From the NCBI GenBank assembly GCA_013375375.1, contig JABXJX010000009.1, positions 1 to 41,636 on the forward strand: DNA of 41,636 nucleotides. The letters run 5' to 3'. Position numbers and translations under genes: made by a program. Shown here piece by piece: positions 9,161 through 21,472 of this stretch. Below the pieces are notes generated by a model. That model had not been told where the DNA came from. It saw only the letters and a program-made list of their open reading frames with translations, and ran no database searches. This DNA comes from Desulfobacterales bacterium (GTDB lineage: Bacteria; Desulfobacterota; Desulfobacteria; Desulfobacterales; C00003060). Every line of letters starts with the position of its first letter. Within the stretch, counting starts at the first letter, position 1.

Positions 9161-9694
9161 ATGAACTCCCCAGACGAAGACAGAATAATACAAAAATTAA
9201 TGGATTATCAAAGCCAAATCCGGGAGATGGATTACAGTGTAAAGCAATATCTCTCAGATAGGGAAAATAATCCGCACCCCCTCTATGAGGACTTGATTAA
9301 CGAAATCCGAAGATTTGAAAATGAGGCACATAAAATTCGCAACACTGAAATTGAATTACGGCTTGACAGTCTCATGTATTCGTTACTCGTACATGAACAG
9401 GATTGGAAGCGATGGTTTGATGAGGATGCCGCAGCGCCTCGCAAAGAACATTCGGAGAGTGCCGGCCGACAGGATGAGAAGAAAGCTAATATCTTGGTTG
9501 ACAAAGTTTATGCAATTGCAGAAAAAAAGTGGGCCGAGATGGGCGTAACAAATACTGAATCAAAAGAAGATCTGGCCGAAAGGATTTGTCCAATATATAT
9601 GAAGGCCCTACAAGAGGGGCAAGAAGTGGGTTTTGTTTACAACAAAAAAACACACAGGATTCAAATAAAAATTAAAAACGGCGATACTTTCTGA
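9161..9694 (+). CDS. Hypothetical protein, charged and helical
   Basis: 177 aa, not recognised. The sequence is rich in charged residues and predicted helices, with an aromatic/acidic patch LLVHEQDWKRWFDEDAAAP around residues 75-93 and a C-terminal basic stretch ending in TFxxxK-like strands (VGFVYNKKTHRIQIKIKNGD). No signal peptide, membrane segment or cofactor motif is visible, so it is probably cytosolic. The ATG at 9161 has no strong ribosome site. The gene is AT-richer than radC upstream. It is flanked by unknown short genes, so context does not suggest a role. Confidence 0.55.
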   Translation: MNSPDEDRIIQKLMDYQSQIREMDYSVKQYLSDRENNPHPLYEDLINEIRRFENEAHKIRNTEIELRLDSLMYSLLVHEQDWKRWFDEDAAAPRKEHSESAGRQDEKKANILVDKVYAIAEKKWAEMGVTNTESKEDLAERICPIYMKALQEGQEVGFVYNKKTHRIQIKIKNGDTF

Positions 9695-11979: not shown

Positions 11980-12142
11980 AATCCTTGAGATGGACAATTT
12001 AACCAAATCCTTTGATGGCTTGGGCCCCGGCCATAGTGATTATTTCGTTGGGTTGAGACCAGGTTATGTGATAGAAGAATCTGTAAGAAAGCGCTCACAC
12101 TTGTTCCGTTCCGAAGATGAAAAGGGGAAAGATGAAACTTGA
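11972..12142 (+). pseudogene. Short ORF resembling the start of an ABC transporter ATPase (possible remnant)
   Basis: 56 codons beginning MDKILEMDNLTKSFDGL, which resembles the first strand of branched-chain amino acid-type ABC ATPases (LLEVxNLTKxFGGL). The resemblance ends there; no Walker A follows, and the rest (SDYFVGLRPGYVIEESVRKRS) is not recognised. It overlaps the dacB stop by 8 bp and the start of the next gene by 11 bp. It could be a genuine small coupled gene, a leader peptide or a truncated ATPase. The similarity is short and may be chance. Confidence 0.3.
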
Positions 12143-13952
12143 CGATCAGGGCTCCACGGGGGCATCCCCCTTTGATCCCGAACATCCCTACAAGCCGGGC
12201 CAAGAGCCTGCTACTGATGCCTGGTACACGACGTTTTTCATAGAAAATCACCTCGATTACTATGCCTATCCTAATCTTGTGGCTTCTCCGGAACAGGTCC
12301 GTTTTATGGTCTATACCGAGGGAGACGAGCGGTACTATCCGTGCACTGATCGCATGTTCGGCACACTCATGATGCGCCAAGATTCAGGATTTTTACAGGA
12401 AAAATATGAAAAGGTCCTACATAGGATGCTAGGTCTGATTGACCGGCAGATCGAGGATGAATGGGACAAAGCCTTTTTGAAATCTCTTTTAAAGACCAAG
12501 TACGAACACGAGACAAGGGATGGGTTGATAATCCCTTCCCGTCTGGAAAAGAGCCTTCTGAAAATCTACATTGATCGTACCCAGATAGAGGACCCGTATC
12601 AATACGAAAAGACACAGCGAAACAATCGGGCTTTTGAAGTGCTCAGCTCCGAGGTGTTCCAGAAGGCATTGAACCTTGTTGACGATGCCGTCCTCCTTTC
12701 CTCCCCTGTTAGCCTTAATAAGATCAAGGGGCGAGTGGACTACCTGAAACTACGGCGCCTCTTTGCCCTGTCTGTTGAAAGCGCGCTCTGGGAATCTGCT
12801 GAGCTCTTACAATACACCGCGGAGGATTACCTTAGGCTCTTCAACCGTCGTTTCACCGGAGATGGTATCGAGCCATTGTGGCAACTCTTAGGGATTCAAG
12901 GGGAAGAGAGTGCTTCACACGTACCGCAGTCTAAGAAAATCCTTTGGCTGGTCGATGAGACAGGCGGGGTGATGGTGGACCTGGTCATCATAAAATACCT
13001 GGCACAACTTGGCCACAAGATCATAGTTGCATTCAAAGGCGGCCCGTTGTTTACCAAGGCTGATTTTTATGATGCGCAGGAAGACGACATGCTTTGTCGG
13101 GAACTCGAACATGCCCTCTTGATCAAGGAAAAGGGCCTGGGCAAGAATGACTTGGTCAATATTTTTAAAAGCGATAAGAATATCATGGTTATCTCCGATG
13201 GTACACGTGAGAACCTCAACCTTCTGCTTGCCTCGACAACCTTTGCGCGGGCCTTCAAGGAGGTGGACGGAGTCATCTCCAAGGGGCCTGATCAAAGACG
13301 GCGTTTTTTTGATACCCACTTCCGGTTTACCCAAGACATTTACAGCGTCGCAAGAGATGAAGACGGCTCAACTTCAGTTTGGTACAAGGCCAGGCACCCT
13401 GCCGTGATAAAGTTCTCACACCAGGATCTCGAAAAGAAGGCACAAACAATCATCTCGCAGATGGAAGCAGCCAAAGAGAAAGGAATGACGGTCATATTTT
13501 ACAGCGGCATTATCGGTTCTATCCCTGGTAAGGTGACAATAGCCAAAAAGATCATGAAGACTTATACCCAGTACCTGAAAGACCAGACTGCCGGCACCTT
13601 CATTATCAATCCCTCAGAACATTATGAGCCGGGGATGGATGCCGATGACTTGATGTACATGTGGGAGATTGTTCAACAAAGCGGGTTGATCGACATATGG
13701 CGGTTCCAGGCTTATGATGATATTGTAAAAGCCTTTCAAATCATGAAGGCCAGGATTCCACCGGAATGGGTAGGCAAGGATGCCACATTCAGTACGGGTT
13801 GCACAAAGGAGATGGGGATTGCCGTTGAGGTTCAAAAAGAACACCCTGAAATGCAGATAATAGGGCCGTCGCAAGAAAAATTTCTAAGACGCGAGGAATA
13901 TGGCATAGGCAAGATGTACGACCGCCGGTTGAGCGAAGTTTGCTTACCGTAA
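12132..13952 (+). CDS. Large DUF89/ARMT1-like protein with an unassigned C-terminal domain
   Basis: 606 aa. The central part resembles the damage-control phosphatase (DUF89) fold: LWLVDETGGVMVDLVIIKYL around 275-293 in the position of the metal-binding DNxGExxxD motif, then HKIIVAFKGGPLF, and VDGVISKGPDQRRRFF in place of the SKGqgN block. The usual DNAGE reads DETGG, so metal binding and activity are uncertain. The last 170 residues (FYSGIIGSIPGKVTIAKKIM, NPSEHYEPGMDADDLMYMWE) are well-formed but not recognised. The ATG at 12132 is chosen because AGGGG lies 5 bp upstream, unlike the ATG at 12117. No signal peptide. Family members remove phosphate from damaged sugar phosphates; the substrate here is unknown. 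Confidence 0.6.
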   Translation: MKLDDQGSTGASPFDPEHPYKPGQEPATDAWYTTFFIENHLDYYAYPNLVASPEQVRFMVYTEGDERYYPCTDRMFGTLMMRQDSGFLQEKYEKVLHRMLGLIDRQIEDEWDKAFLKSLLKTKYEHETRDGLIIPSRLEKSLLKIYIDRTQIEDPYQYEKTQRNNRAFEVLSSEVFQKALNLVDDAVLLSSPVSLNKIKGRVDYLKLRRLFALSVESALWESAELLQYTAEDYLRLFNRRFTGDGIEPLWQLLGIQGEESASHVPQSKKILWLVDETGGVMVDLVIIKYLAQLGHKIIVAFKGGPLFTKADFYDAQEDDMLCRELEHALLIKEKGLGKNDLVNIFKSDKNIMVISDGTRENLNLLLASTTFARAFKEVDGVISKGPDQRRRFFDTHFRFTQDIYSVARDEDGSTSVWYKARHPAVIKFSHQDLEKKAQTIISQMEAAKEKGMTVIFYSGIIGSIPGKVTIAKKIMKTYTQYLKDQTAGTFIINPSEHYEPGMDADDLMYMWEIVQQSGLIDIWRFQAYDDIVKAFQIMKARIPPEWVGKDATFSTGCTKEMGIAVEVQKEHPEMQIIGPSQEKFLRREEYGIGKMYDRRLSEVCLP

Positions 13953-15085: not shown

Positions 15086-15721
15086 TTACACACCATAAAA
15101 CTTTACTGCCGGCAGTTCCACACAGGTCAGCTTGTTGCCGTAGACGGCACCGGTATCAATGCCGATCTTGTTGTCGAGGACCAGCGGCTCCCTGAAAGGC
15201 GTGTGGCCGAAGATTACGCGCCTTCCAAAATCAAAATCAGAATATATAAATTCCTCCCGTATCCAGAGTATATCTGATTCATCTTGTTTTTCAAGGGGTA
15301 CATTAGCCCTCATGCCCGCGTGGACAAAGATGTACTCGTTTGTCTCATAATATAGGCGCAGGTTGTCAAAGAAGTCGAGGTGCGCATCAGGTATAGGGCC
15401 GGCTCCGGCCAGTGGGCTTTCCTTCAAGTAACTATCGAGTGTTGCTTGCCCGCCGATTGTCAGAAAGTTGAAACGGTCGACTCCAGACAAGTAACGCTCG
15501 AGCATCAGTTCATGATTCCCCTTAAGAAAGACCACTCGACTTTGTTGCTTGGCCAGATTAATTAAATAGTCCACCACCTCCTTTGAGTGAGGGCCTCGAT
15601 CGATGTAGTCTCCTATGAACAGGAGCGTGTCTTTTTCCCGGTCAATGTCTATGACGTCCATCAAGGAGATTAACTTGTCGAGGCAGCCATGTATGTCGCC
15701 TACGGCAAAGATTTTTTCCAT
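15086..15721 (-). CDS. Calcineurin-like metallophosphatase (bacterial Ser/Thr phosphatase/ApaH type)
   Basis: 211 aa. The metal-binding motifs of the PPP family are all present: FAVGDIHGC (residues 5-13), FIGDYIDRGPHS (35-46), FLKGNHELM (65-73) and VIFGHTPF near residue 170. Related enzymes dephosphorylate Ser/Thr-phosphoproteins or cleave dinucleoside tetraphosphates; the sequence alone does not decide between them. The ATG shares one base with the TAA of the radical SAM gene upstream (TAATG), so the two are coupled. It is the second gene of a four-gene minus-strand run. Confidence 0.87.
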   Translation of the reverse strand: MEKIFAVGDIHGCLDKLISLMDVIDIDREKDTLLFIGDYIDRGPHSKEVVDYLINLAKQQSRVVFLKGNHELMLERYLSGVDRFNFLTIGGQATLDSYLKESPLAGAGPIPDAHLDFFDNLRLYYETNEYIFVHAGMRANVPLEKQDESDILWIREEFIYSDFDFGRRVIFGHTPFREPLVLDNKIGIDTGAVYGNKLTCVELPAVKFYGV

Positions 15722-16662
15722 TACATCCAGTGAAGTACAAAGGCCCGTTTTCGCTCATCCAGCCGTGTTATTCCCTCTTCACGGGCTGCCTGAATCGCCT
15801 CCCGGTATTCTTCCTCGGTGATAGTGCGCCCCAGTGCCTGCATTTCAGAGGCCCGGCCGCACGGCCTGTACTGTGCCATGACATTTACATAGCTATTGGG
15901 AGAGATTTCTCCGGCCAGGAAACGCATGACCTGCCGGGTACCAGCCAGCCCCCCGGGAAGCACCAGGTGTCTGACCAGGAGGCCTCTCCGGGCAATCCCC
16001 TCCCCGTCCGTCACCAGATCCCCAACCTGGCGGTGCATTTCCTTGAATGCCTTCCCGGCCACTTCAGGATAATCCGGCGCCTCGCATAGCTGCTCGGCTA
16101 TCTTTGTATCCCAGAACTTGAAGTCGGGCATATAGATATCGAACACTCCTTCCAGGATTCTCAGGGTTTCAGGCCTGTCATAGCCGCCGGTGTTATAGAC
16201 CAGGGGTACACGCAGTCCAAGTTCAACAGCCCTGTCAACAGCATCTAAGATCTGCGGCACTACGTGAGATGGCGTCACAAAGTTGATGTTATGGCAGCCC
16301 CTGTCCTGAAGGAGCAGCATTGCATTGGCAAGCTCTTCCGAAGACCAGGGAACTCCTTCGCCTTCATGGCTGATGTCGTAGTTCTGGCAGAAGATGCACA
16401 GCAGGTTGCATCGGGCAAAGAATATAGTCCCCGAACCGTGGCTCCCGACCAGGGGGGCCTCCTCCCCAAAATGAGGGCTGTAGCTTGATACAATAGCGTG
16501 TTTGCCTGTCCGGCATATTCCCTTTTCATCTGAGAGCCGGTCTACTCCGCATCCCCTGGGACAAAGGGCGCAGGCCTTCAGGATTTTATAAGCCCGGGCG
16601 ACTTTCTCCTTCAGGAGTCCTTTGTTGTGGGTTTCTATATATGCAGGTTTAAAGGAAGCCAT
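15721..16662 (-). CDS. PflX-like radical SAM protein
   Basis: 313 aa radical SAM enzyme resembling the uncharacterised PflX group of pyruvate formate-lyase activase-like proteins. The [4Fe-4S] motif is C85-x3-C89-x2-C92 (ARCNLLCIFCQN). An N-terminal cysteine set (C31, C34, C38, C50 in CALCPRGCGVDRL...GIC) is typical of this group and probably binds a metal. Later blocks NFVTPSHVVPQI, VYNTGGYD and IYMPDFKFWD fit the SAM barrel. The target protein or substrate is not known. The start codon lies in the loop of a GGAAGC/GCTTCC hairpin that also contains the ribosome site. It leads the minus-strand run. Confidence 0.85.
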   Translation of the reverse strand: MASFKPAYIETHNKGLLKEKVARAYKILKACALCPRGCGVDRLSDEKGICRTGKHAIVSSYSPHFGEEAPLVGSHGSGTIFFARCNLLCIFCQNYDISHEGEGVPWSSEELANAMLLLQDRGCHNINFVTPSHVVPQILDAVDRAVELGLRVPLVYNTGGYDRPETLRILEGVFDIYMPDFKFWDTKIAEQLCEAPDYPEVAGKAFKEMHRQVGDLVTDGEGIARRGLLVRHLVLPGGLAGTRQVMRFLAGEISPNSYVNVMAQYRPCGRASEMQALGRTITEEEYREAIQAAREEGITRLDERKRAFVLHWM

Positions 16663-19363: not shown

Positions 19364-19507
19364 GTCTCGTAAAAAGTCATCAAATGGACGGCACAGTAAA
19401 AAGCTTCAGATGCAAGGCGCGCGAATCTTGAGGAATGAGGTCCGCCTCAGGCGGATCGCAATGACGAAAGATGAAGCGCAACACCGCAGATGGACTTTTT
19501 ACGAAGC
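19364..19507. mobile_element. MITE-like element with terminal inverted repeats
   Basis: TCGTAAAAAGTC at 19367-19378 is repeated in perfect inverted form as GACTTTTTACGA at 19493-19504; with one gap and a few mismatches the match extends to about 20 bp. Between them lie about 114 bp with no transposase, including the hairpin TCCGCC-TCA-GGCGGA (19441-19455). This is the layout of a small non-autonomous element. Its right end is only about 11 bp from the ribosome site of the ADH synthase gene. No clear target duplication is visible. Confidence 0.6.
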
Positions 19508-19529
19508 CGTCAAAGTGGAGGATGAAAAA

Positions 19530-20330
19530 ATGAGTATAGGTAAGGAAGTCCGTAAAGAACGAATCCTGAACAAGGAAACCGGCAAGACCGTAATTGTTCC
19601 AATGGACCACGGGGTGACAGTAGGTCCGATCAAGGGTCTGATCGATCTGCCCGGGACCGTGGACCTGGTAGCCAAGGGCGGGGCTAATGCCGTGGTCGAA
19701 CACGTGGGTATGGTCGGCCAGGGGCATCGCCGCTACGGGCGTGATATCGGGCTGATCGTCCATCTTTCCGGCTGCACCACTCTTTCCCCGGATCCTAACC
19801 GCAAGGTGCTGGTCTGTTCTGTGGAGCGCGCAGTTCGAGTTGGGGCGGATGCTGTAAGTATCCATGTCAACATCGGTGCCGAAAACGAGGGCGAAATGTT
19901 TGAAGCTTTCGGCGAAGTCTCGGAAGCCGCTGATTACTGGGGCGTGCCGCTTCTTGCTATGGTTTATCCCCGTGGTCCCAAGGTCGCCGACGAAAAAGAT
20001 GTTGAGAACGTAAAAATCGCGGCCCGGGTGGGCGCCGAGCTCGGGGCGGACATAGTCAAGGTTCCTTACACCGGGTCTCCCGAGACCTTCAAGGATGTGG
20101 TTGATGGATGTCCCATTCCCGTGGTAATAGCTGGCGGATCAAAGCTCTCTGATGAGGACACCTTAAAGATGGTTGAGGGTGCCGTGAATGCGGGGGCGGC
20201 AGGCCTATCAATGGGCCGCAATGCTTTTCAGCACAAGAATCCGGTGCGCTTGGTGTCTGCTGCGTGCGCCATTGTTCACGACGGTAAGAGCGCGAAAGAG
20301 GCAATGAAGATTCTCAAGGGTAAGGCGTAA
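19530..20330 (+). CDS. 2-amino-3,7-dideoxy-D-threo-hept-6-ulosonate synthase (archaeal-type class I aldolase family)
   Basis: Predicted first enzyme of the archaeal-type route to 3-dehydroquinate. In Methanocaldococcus (MJ0400 family) it condenses a C3 aldehyde-derived fragment with L-aspartate semialdehyde. The 266-aa protein is a DeoC/FbaB-like barrel with [11 protein letters not shown] near 23-33, the Schiff-base lysine K177 in [13 protein letters not shown], and the phosphate-binding [13 protein letters not shown] and [14 protein letters not shown]. Plain fructose-bisphosphate aldolase is the alternative, but the dehydroquinate synthase II gene next door favours the aromatic role. The ATG at 19530 has GGAGG 9 bp upstream; the ORF-track start would run into the MITE-like element. 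Confidence 0.87.
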
Positions 20331-20381
20331 GGCTAAGGGCGAGAGGAAGAACCCTTGGCCTTTAGCCCTTTGCCCTTAGCC
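20331..20381 (+). other. Inverted repeat between the two aromatic-pathway genes
   Basis: GGCTAAGGGC (20331-20340) pairs perfectly with GCCCTTAGCC (20372-20381) around a 31-nt internal part that itself has smaller self-complementary pieces (AACCCTTGGCC, TTAGCCCTTT). It begins directly after the synthase stop codon. It could be an attenuator, an mRNA-stability hairpin or a dispersed repeat. There is no T-run. Confidence 0.5.
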
Positions 20382-20473
20382 AGTTCAAACTGTTTGAGAA
20401 AATAGTCAAAACTTTTTTGCAATAGATACGAATTTAATTTCTAAGAAGTTAATAAGGGGCATAGGAGTATATC

Positions 20474-21472
20474 ATGCCGAGGCTGTTTTGGGTTAATGCG
20501 AAGCCGTATAAAAAGAAATTAGTGACCACTGCGCTGGAAAGCGGGGCTGACGCCGTGATTGTTCCCCTGGGCCAGTCGAAAAAGGTCCATGAGCTCGGGC
20601 TTATCAAGACTGTGTCGCCGGACGGTGACTTGAAACTCGGTGAGGACGTGATCGAGATCGCTATTTCCTCTGAAAAAGACGAGGCCAAGGCGCTCAAGGT
20701 TGCGGCCGAGAAGCTGCTCCTGATCAAGACCAGCGACTGGAAGGTGATTCCGCTTGAAAACCTGATCGCCAAGAGGGGCAAGGGCCTGCTGGCCTGGGTG
20801 CGCAGTGCGGAAGAGGCCAAAGTCGCGTTAGAGATCATGGAGCGCGGGGTTGACGGGGTAGTTCTCGCTACAAGCGATCTTTCCGAGATCAAGCGAACGG
20901 CGGCCGTAGTCCGGGAACAGGGAGAGCGGCTCCATATAGTTCAGGCCACTATCAAATCAGTTCGGCCGCTGGGTATGGGAGACCGGGTCTGCGTTGATAC
21001 CATTACCAACATGAAGCCAGGACAGGGCATGCTCGTTGGAAACTCCAGTTCGGGCATGTTTCTGGCCTATGCCGAAAACGTTGAGACACCATATTGCGCC
21101 ACCCGTCCCTTTCGTGTAAATGCCGGGGCCGTCCACGCCTACATACGCGTACCGGACAGCAAGACCTCTTACTTGGCCGACTTGAGCATTGGTGACCCGG
21201 TTTTGATAGTAGACCACAAGGGGGGAACCGAGGTTGGCTTCGTGGGCCGGGCAAAGGTAGAAAAAAGGCCCATGATGCTGGTGGAAGCCGCCCATAAGGG
21301 CAAGCCATTGTCATTGGTCATGCAAAACGCTGAGACCATCAGGTTGACCAAGCCTGGAGGTGAGCCCGTCTCCATTACCCAACTGAAAGTCGGCGACCGA
21401 GTACTTGCCTACCTGGAGGAAGCCGGTAGGCATTTCGGGGTAAAGATCGAAGAGACAATAGTGGAAAAATAG
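20474..21472 (+). CDS. 3-dehydroquinate synthase type II
   Basis: Converts 2-amino-3,7-dideoxy-D-threo-hept-6-ulosonate to 3-dehydroquinate by NAD-dependent oxidative deamination and cyclisation (MJ1249 family), replacing the classical DAHP synthase/AroB route. The 332-aa length matches the family. Recognisable blocks are FWVNAKPYKKKLVTTALESGADAVIV at the N-terminus, RVCVDTITNMKPGQGMLVGNSSSGMFL near the middle, the segment RPFRVNAGAVHAYIRVP and the strand-rich C-terminal part with GDRVLAYLEEAGRHFG. AGGAG lies 7 bp before the ATG. It follows the ADH synthase gene on the same strand after 143 bp containing a hairpin, so the two probably form one pathway unit. Confidence 0.93.
   Translation: MPRLFWVNAKPYKKKLVTTALESGADAVIVPLGQSKKVHELGLIKTVSPDGDLKLGEDVIEIAISSEKDEAKALKVAAEKLLLIKTSDWKVIPLENLIAKRGKGLLAWVRSAEEAKVALEIMERGVDGVVLATSDLSEIKRTAAVVREQGERLHIVQATIKSVRPLGMGDRVCVDTITNMKPGQGMLVGNSSSGMFLAYAENVETPYCATRPFRVNAGAVHAYIRVPDSKTSYLADLSIGDPVLIVDHKGGTEVGFVGRAKVEKRPMMLVEAAHKGKPLSLVMQNAETIRLTKPGGEPVSITQLKVGDRVLAYLEEAGRHFGVKIEETIVEK

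Follow-up and report, generated by a model that had tools for sequence, protein, structure and literature searches.

The 41,636-nucleotide stretch of Desulfobacterales DNA analysed here (the window) contains an open reading frame on the forward strand (12117–13952) that specifies 611 amino acids when read from the ATG at 12117 and 606 amino acids when read from the in-frame ATG at 12132. The latter is the better start because an AGGGGA sequence lies just upstream of it, and the start given in the preliminary description is thus preferred; residue numbers of the window protein are counted from the ATG at 12117. The features of the gene are summarized in Table 1. Its neighbours in the window, a D-Ala-D-Ala carboxypeptidase gene upstream and genes for SH3-domain and metallo-beta-lactamase-fold proteins downstream, say little about its function. 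N-terminal fusions seen in some homologues (ORFs of 830–953 amino acids) were rejected as out-of-frame artefacts of GC-rich DNA.

Table 1. Features of the DUF89-like gene and its product in the window
Feature	Position	Strand	Basis
Whole gene, protein with DUF89-fold part and C-terminal domain	12132..13952	+	ORF, Pfam, homologues
Probable ribosome-binding site, AGGGGA	12123..12128	+	Sequence; inference
Family-specific N-terminal part, residues ~31–90, outside the Pfam match	12207..12386	+	A35, N44, E59, Q60, F63, P75, and C76 conserved
DUF89/ARMT1-like domain, residues 95–408	12399..13340	+	PF01937, Foldseek, hhalign
DETGG, residues 280–284, where DNxGE is expected	12954..12968	+	Sequence; family counts
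Lys314, at the position of the second catalytic Asp	13056..13058	+	Alignments; counts; Asp role from PMC9352595
Invariant-residue cluster K343, D361, E365, N368, R378, E382 (plus T405)	13143..13262	+	Family counts
C-terminal alpha/beta domain of no known family, residues 435–602	13419..13922	+	Models, Pfam/PDB searches, family counts

The single Pfam match of the window protein is PF01937 (ARMT1-like; 44.2 bits, cutoff 25), a family also matched by 36 of 44 aligned relatives at an E-value of 0.01 or better, while NCBIfam equivalogs gave weak matches far under their cutoffs. An AlphaFold2 model was obtained for the whole protein (pLDDT 87.7, pTM 0.84), and its top Foldseek matches were DUF89 proteins, i.e. 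2g8l (the best; E 5.6e-10, prob 1.00, TM 0.75 on the target), 2ffj, 1xfi, and ARMT1-like proteins from fission yeast and others, with E-values ranging from 6e-10 to 2e-4. Profile–profile alignment of the family with 15 ordinary DUF89 proteins from the same phylum (hhalign) gave a probability of 99.5% and an E-value of 1.9e-22. Because of the Foldseek matches and this alignment, membership of the window protein in the DUF89 fold superfamily is secure, and the earlier claim that its core resembles damage-control phosphatases, which hinged on a structural match to DUF89, survives.

The window protein shares a common fold and detectable homology, over residues ~95–408, with the archaeal, plant, and PANK4-type DUF89 phosphatases, namely PH1575 of P. 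horikoshii (2g8l), AF1104 of A. fulgidus (2ffj), At2g17340 of Arabidopsis (1xfi), and the C-terminal domain of PANK4. Compared with these proteins, its family has the Asn of DNxGE and the second Asp replaced and the first Asp variable, and is extended by an N-terminal part and, at the other end, by a C-terminal domain of 170 residues. ARMT1 and the fungal DUF89 proteins (6umq, 7t7k, and 5by0; Foldseek E-values of 4e-6 to 2e-4) are structurally less similar to the window protein than the archaeal ones, and no counterpart of its C-terminal domain was detected in them.

A scan of GTDB genomes yielded 225 matching stretches, and the 80 listed, apparently from Desulfobacterales or their kin, show 51–84% identity over nearly the full length. 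The gene is carried by 31 of 60 genomes related to that of the window, and a profile search across the phylum, which extended to families beyond Desulfobacterales, found the full-length protein of ~600 amino acids, always in a single copy and down to about 34% identity, in 39 of 395 genomes. One homologue belongs to the cultivated Desulfospira joergensenii (L069). Plasmid and phage collections contained no match to the family. The dsrA gene is present in 36 of the 39 carriers, compared with 190 of all 395 genomes (Fisher p 1e-9). Shared ancestry confounds this association, and there are many dsrA genomes without the DUF89-like gene. At least 11 of the carriers have a gene for an ordinary DUF89 protein as well; replacement of the ordinary protein by the family was therefore rejected, and it is unlikely that either can stand in for the other. 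Our search of the literature on DUF89 in sulfate reducers found nothing relevant. In many sulfate-reducer-type genomes, the gene is a defined target present only once, and its function is approachable by ordinary genetics and enzymology.

Residues were counted in 103 non-redundant family members, comprising 81 of the Desulfobacterales type and 22 from other families, and compared with 16 ordinary DUF89 proteins of the phylum that had been extracted without selecting on the motif. All 16 ordinary proteins keep both D-N-x-G-[ED] and the second Asp. In human PANK4, both conserved aspartates (D623 and D659) are essential (PMC9352595). The family consensus at residues 280–284 is [DN]E[AST]GE, which becomes degenerate outside Desulfobacterales: position 280 is Asp in 68 of the 103 members, many of those outside Desulfobacterales having P, G, V, or R instead, whereas position 281 is never Asn (0/103) and is Glu in 78 of the 81 Desulfobacterales-type members, with a mixture elsewhere. 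The preliminary description had pointed to a change from DNxGE to DETGG; residues 280–284 do read DETGG, but the final G is largely confined to the window protein and a few relatives (position 284 is Glu in 71/81 Desulfobacterales-type members), and the family-defining change within the motif is that from Asn to Glu at position 281. Replacement of the second catalytic Asp by Lys314, missed earlier, is more telling than DETGG. This position, the equivalent of PANK4 D659, is Lys in 80 of the 103 members (78/81 of the Desulfobacterales type) and Asp in only one; beyond the 78, nearly all members have A, E, S, R, or K there. The window protein thus departs from the hallmarks of DUF89 phosphatases in having DE for Asp-Asn and Lys for the second Asp. 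The altered motif is not a product of chance: dozens of homologues share it, though it degenerates outside Desulfobacterales.

Seven other residues (K343, D361, E365, N368, R378, E382, and T405) are invariant in the family and are located in the same half of the DUF89 domain as the lost site. In the profile–profile alignment, D361-G-T falls opposite the canonical 'STG' stretch. The positions of G283, D288, K307, and D319, which are common to ordinary DUF89 proteins, including the archaeal, plant, and PANK4-type phosphatases, have been kept and are nearly invariant. The usual classification of DUF89 proteins is as metal-dependent damage-control phosphatases, and an automatic pipeline relying on PF01937 alone would label the window protein as such; a family without the residues that define this activity is a warning against transferring that annotation.

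The roughly 170 C-terminal residues, noted earlier as unassigned, remain so: residues ~435–611 gave no Pfam match with a useful E-value and had no relative in a PDB sequence search. Residues ~435–595 are confidently predicted to form a domain of alternating alpha and beta elements, and modelling of the domain by itself gave the same result (pLDDT 86.6). Foldseek searches with this domain identified no confident relative, returning RecA-like and scattered deoxyribosyltransferase-like matches with poor E-values. The domain is the most conserved part of the family and the densest in invariant residues, with a mean pairwise identity of 0.68, vs 0.50 in the DUF89 core and 0.43 in the helical part; its conserved motifs are GSIPG, INP, GMDADD, WRFQ, GKDxTxSTGCTKE, EMQxxGP, and FxRRxEYG. 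A strongly constrained domain is thus absent from every library searched. When a profile of the C-terminal domain alone was run against the 395 genomes, the same 39 carriers were recovered together with three weak extras. On visual inspection, these were taken to be fortuitous partial matches, two to a GatA-like amidase and one to an enoate-reductase-like flavoprotein, and they were rejected as standalone copies. Within the sampled phylum, therefore, the domain exists only as a fusion to the DUF89-fold part. This combination of a DUF89 fold with a C-terminal domain of no known family, present in many homologues, supports the earlier proposal of a distinct subfamily. The tail of the protein, residues about 589–602 (13881–13922), is nearly invariant in the family, yet residues 596–607 are predicted at low confidence; this pairing suggests that the tail may become ordered on a ligand or partner.

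The new invariants and the highly conserved C-terminal domain suggest a rebuilt active site. The explanation that we favour, and to which we give an even chance, is that the protein is a two-domain enzyme in which a rebuilt DUF89 pocket and an essential C-terminal domain act by another chemistry on a small metabolite, probably a phosphorylated one. The canonical metal-phosphatase site has been dismantled through the variable Asp280 and the changes to Glu281 and Lys314, while K343, D361, E365, N368, R378, and E382 form a new invariant set in that half of the domain. In the genomes sampled, the DUF89 domain is always fused to a Rossmann-like alpha/beta domain, which would supply essential catalytic or binding residues, and the metabolite, by its presumed class a phosphorylated one, may be bound in a putative cleft between the two domains. 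The reaction would then be other than the classical Asp-metal phosphohydrolysis of DUF89 proteins. A different chemistry had been suggested previously and is plausible, given that dismantling of the canonical Asp/Asn/Asp site extends to the whole family. Since most catalytic residues are lost and an extra, more strongly conserved domain is present, this conserved DUF89-fold protein of many sulfate-reducer-type bacteria probably has a role different from the known reaction. Counting against the two-domain enzyme are the gene neighbours, which point to no pathway, and the failure of Foldseek to find a confident relative of the C-terminal domain. A further point against it is that, in Desulfobacterales, a metal might yet be bound by Glu281 and by Asp280, which is retained in part.

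The chief alternative, which we regard as a serious though rather unlikely one, is that the protein is still a metal-dependent phosphatase, with E281, D288, and D361/E365 as substitute ligands, hydrolysing phosphate esters of another substrate range. Such an enzyme would account for the retained fold, the near-invariance of G283, D288, K307, and D319, the invariant new carboxylates D361/E365, and the alignment of 'STG' with D361-G-T, but both positions of the Asp residues essential in PANK4 (PMC9352595) are changed or variable, and many members outside Desulfobacterales have P, G, V, or R at position 280.

Loss of the canonical catalytic residues would also be expected if the DUF89 domain were dead and served as a scaffold or sensor, the C-terminal domain binding a protein or nucleic acid partner, and the near-invariant, low-confidence last ~15 residues behave as a segment that orders on a partner might. 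This is improbable: D, E, K, R, N, and C abound among the invariant residues, which are not just surface hydrophobics, the DUF89 domain has acquired a new set of charged residues that is invariant, and no conserved partner gene accompanies the family.

It is more improbable still that the C-terminal domain is a nucleoside 2-deoxyribosyltransferase (NDT)- or DNPH1-like N-glycosidase that cleaves the N-glycosidic bond of a nucleotide or nucleotide-sugar by means of Y462, D510/D511, and E565. The secondary-structure elements occur in the same order as in NDT/DNPH1 (PF05014), and Y462, D510, and E565, which are invariant in the family, could correspond to the Tyr-Asp-Glu arrangement of DNPH1 (Y24/D80/E104; PMC10603095); the Foldseek matches to the flavodoxin-like NDT fold, which are moderate, include BFVD A0A8S5T3R7 (prob 0.96, TMt 0.58), A0A8S5TW10 (prob 0.82), and Rcl in the PDB (4fyh, TMt 0.42). 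However, all of these have poor E-values and rank below RecA-like proteins, the Tyr is one residue away from its position in DNPH1, there is no Pfam match to PF05014, and profile–profile comparison with NDT/Rcl sequences taken from relatives and plasmids gave E-values of 0.06–0.14, within the background of 47 unrelated clusters, so that the identity failed at the sequence level and is a lead only. A P-loop NTPase reading, with GSIPGK as Walker A, was rejected because the GxxxxGK spacing is wrong and all 22 members outside Desulfobacterales carry Gln or Glu in place of K472.

A bolder form of the two-domain enzyme can be put forward tentatively, and we think it doubtful as a whole: a DUF89-fold enzyme that has given up the Asp-metal phosphatase mechanism and works together with a catalytic domain not described before. 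The metabolic or repair reaction that it would run would be new and would occur mainly in Desulfobacterota lineages that bear dsrA.

No constant partner gene or pathway was found among the neighbours across lineages, several of the gene names having been recognised by eye. At 26 Desulfobacterales loci, a HAD hydrolase gene is located just upstream, in most cases with a glycosyltransferase-like gene at position -2; other loci have queE-queC as neighbours, and those in other families lie near CorA/PhoH, gatB, or flagellar genes. In the first arrangement (L022, 5537–7940, and about 25 similar Desulfobacterales loci), FHA- and PP2C-like genes are present further upstream in places. Elsewhere in the window, a 177-amino-acid ORF with no Pfam match above cutoff lies beside a radC-like gene (9161–9694), and a PrpE/ApaH-like calcineurin phosphoesterase gene lies beside one for a radical SAM protein weakly similar to the AmmeMemoRadiSam enzyme (15086–16662, reverse strand). 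At 19410–21472, a gene for a DeoC/LacD-family aldolase adjoins one for an archaeal-type 3-dehydroquinate synthase II (PF01959, 414 bits), a pair corresponding to the alternative early shikimate route.
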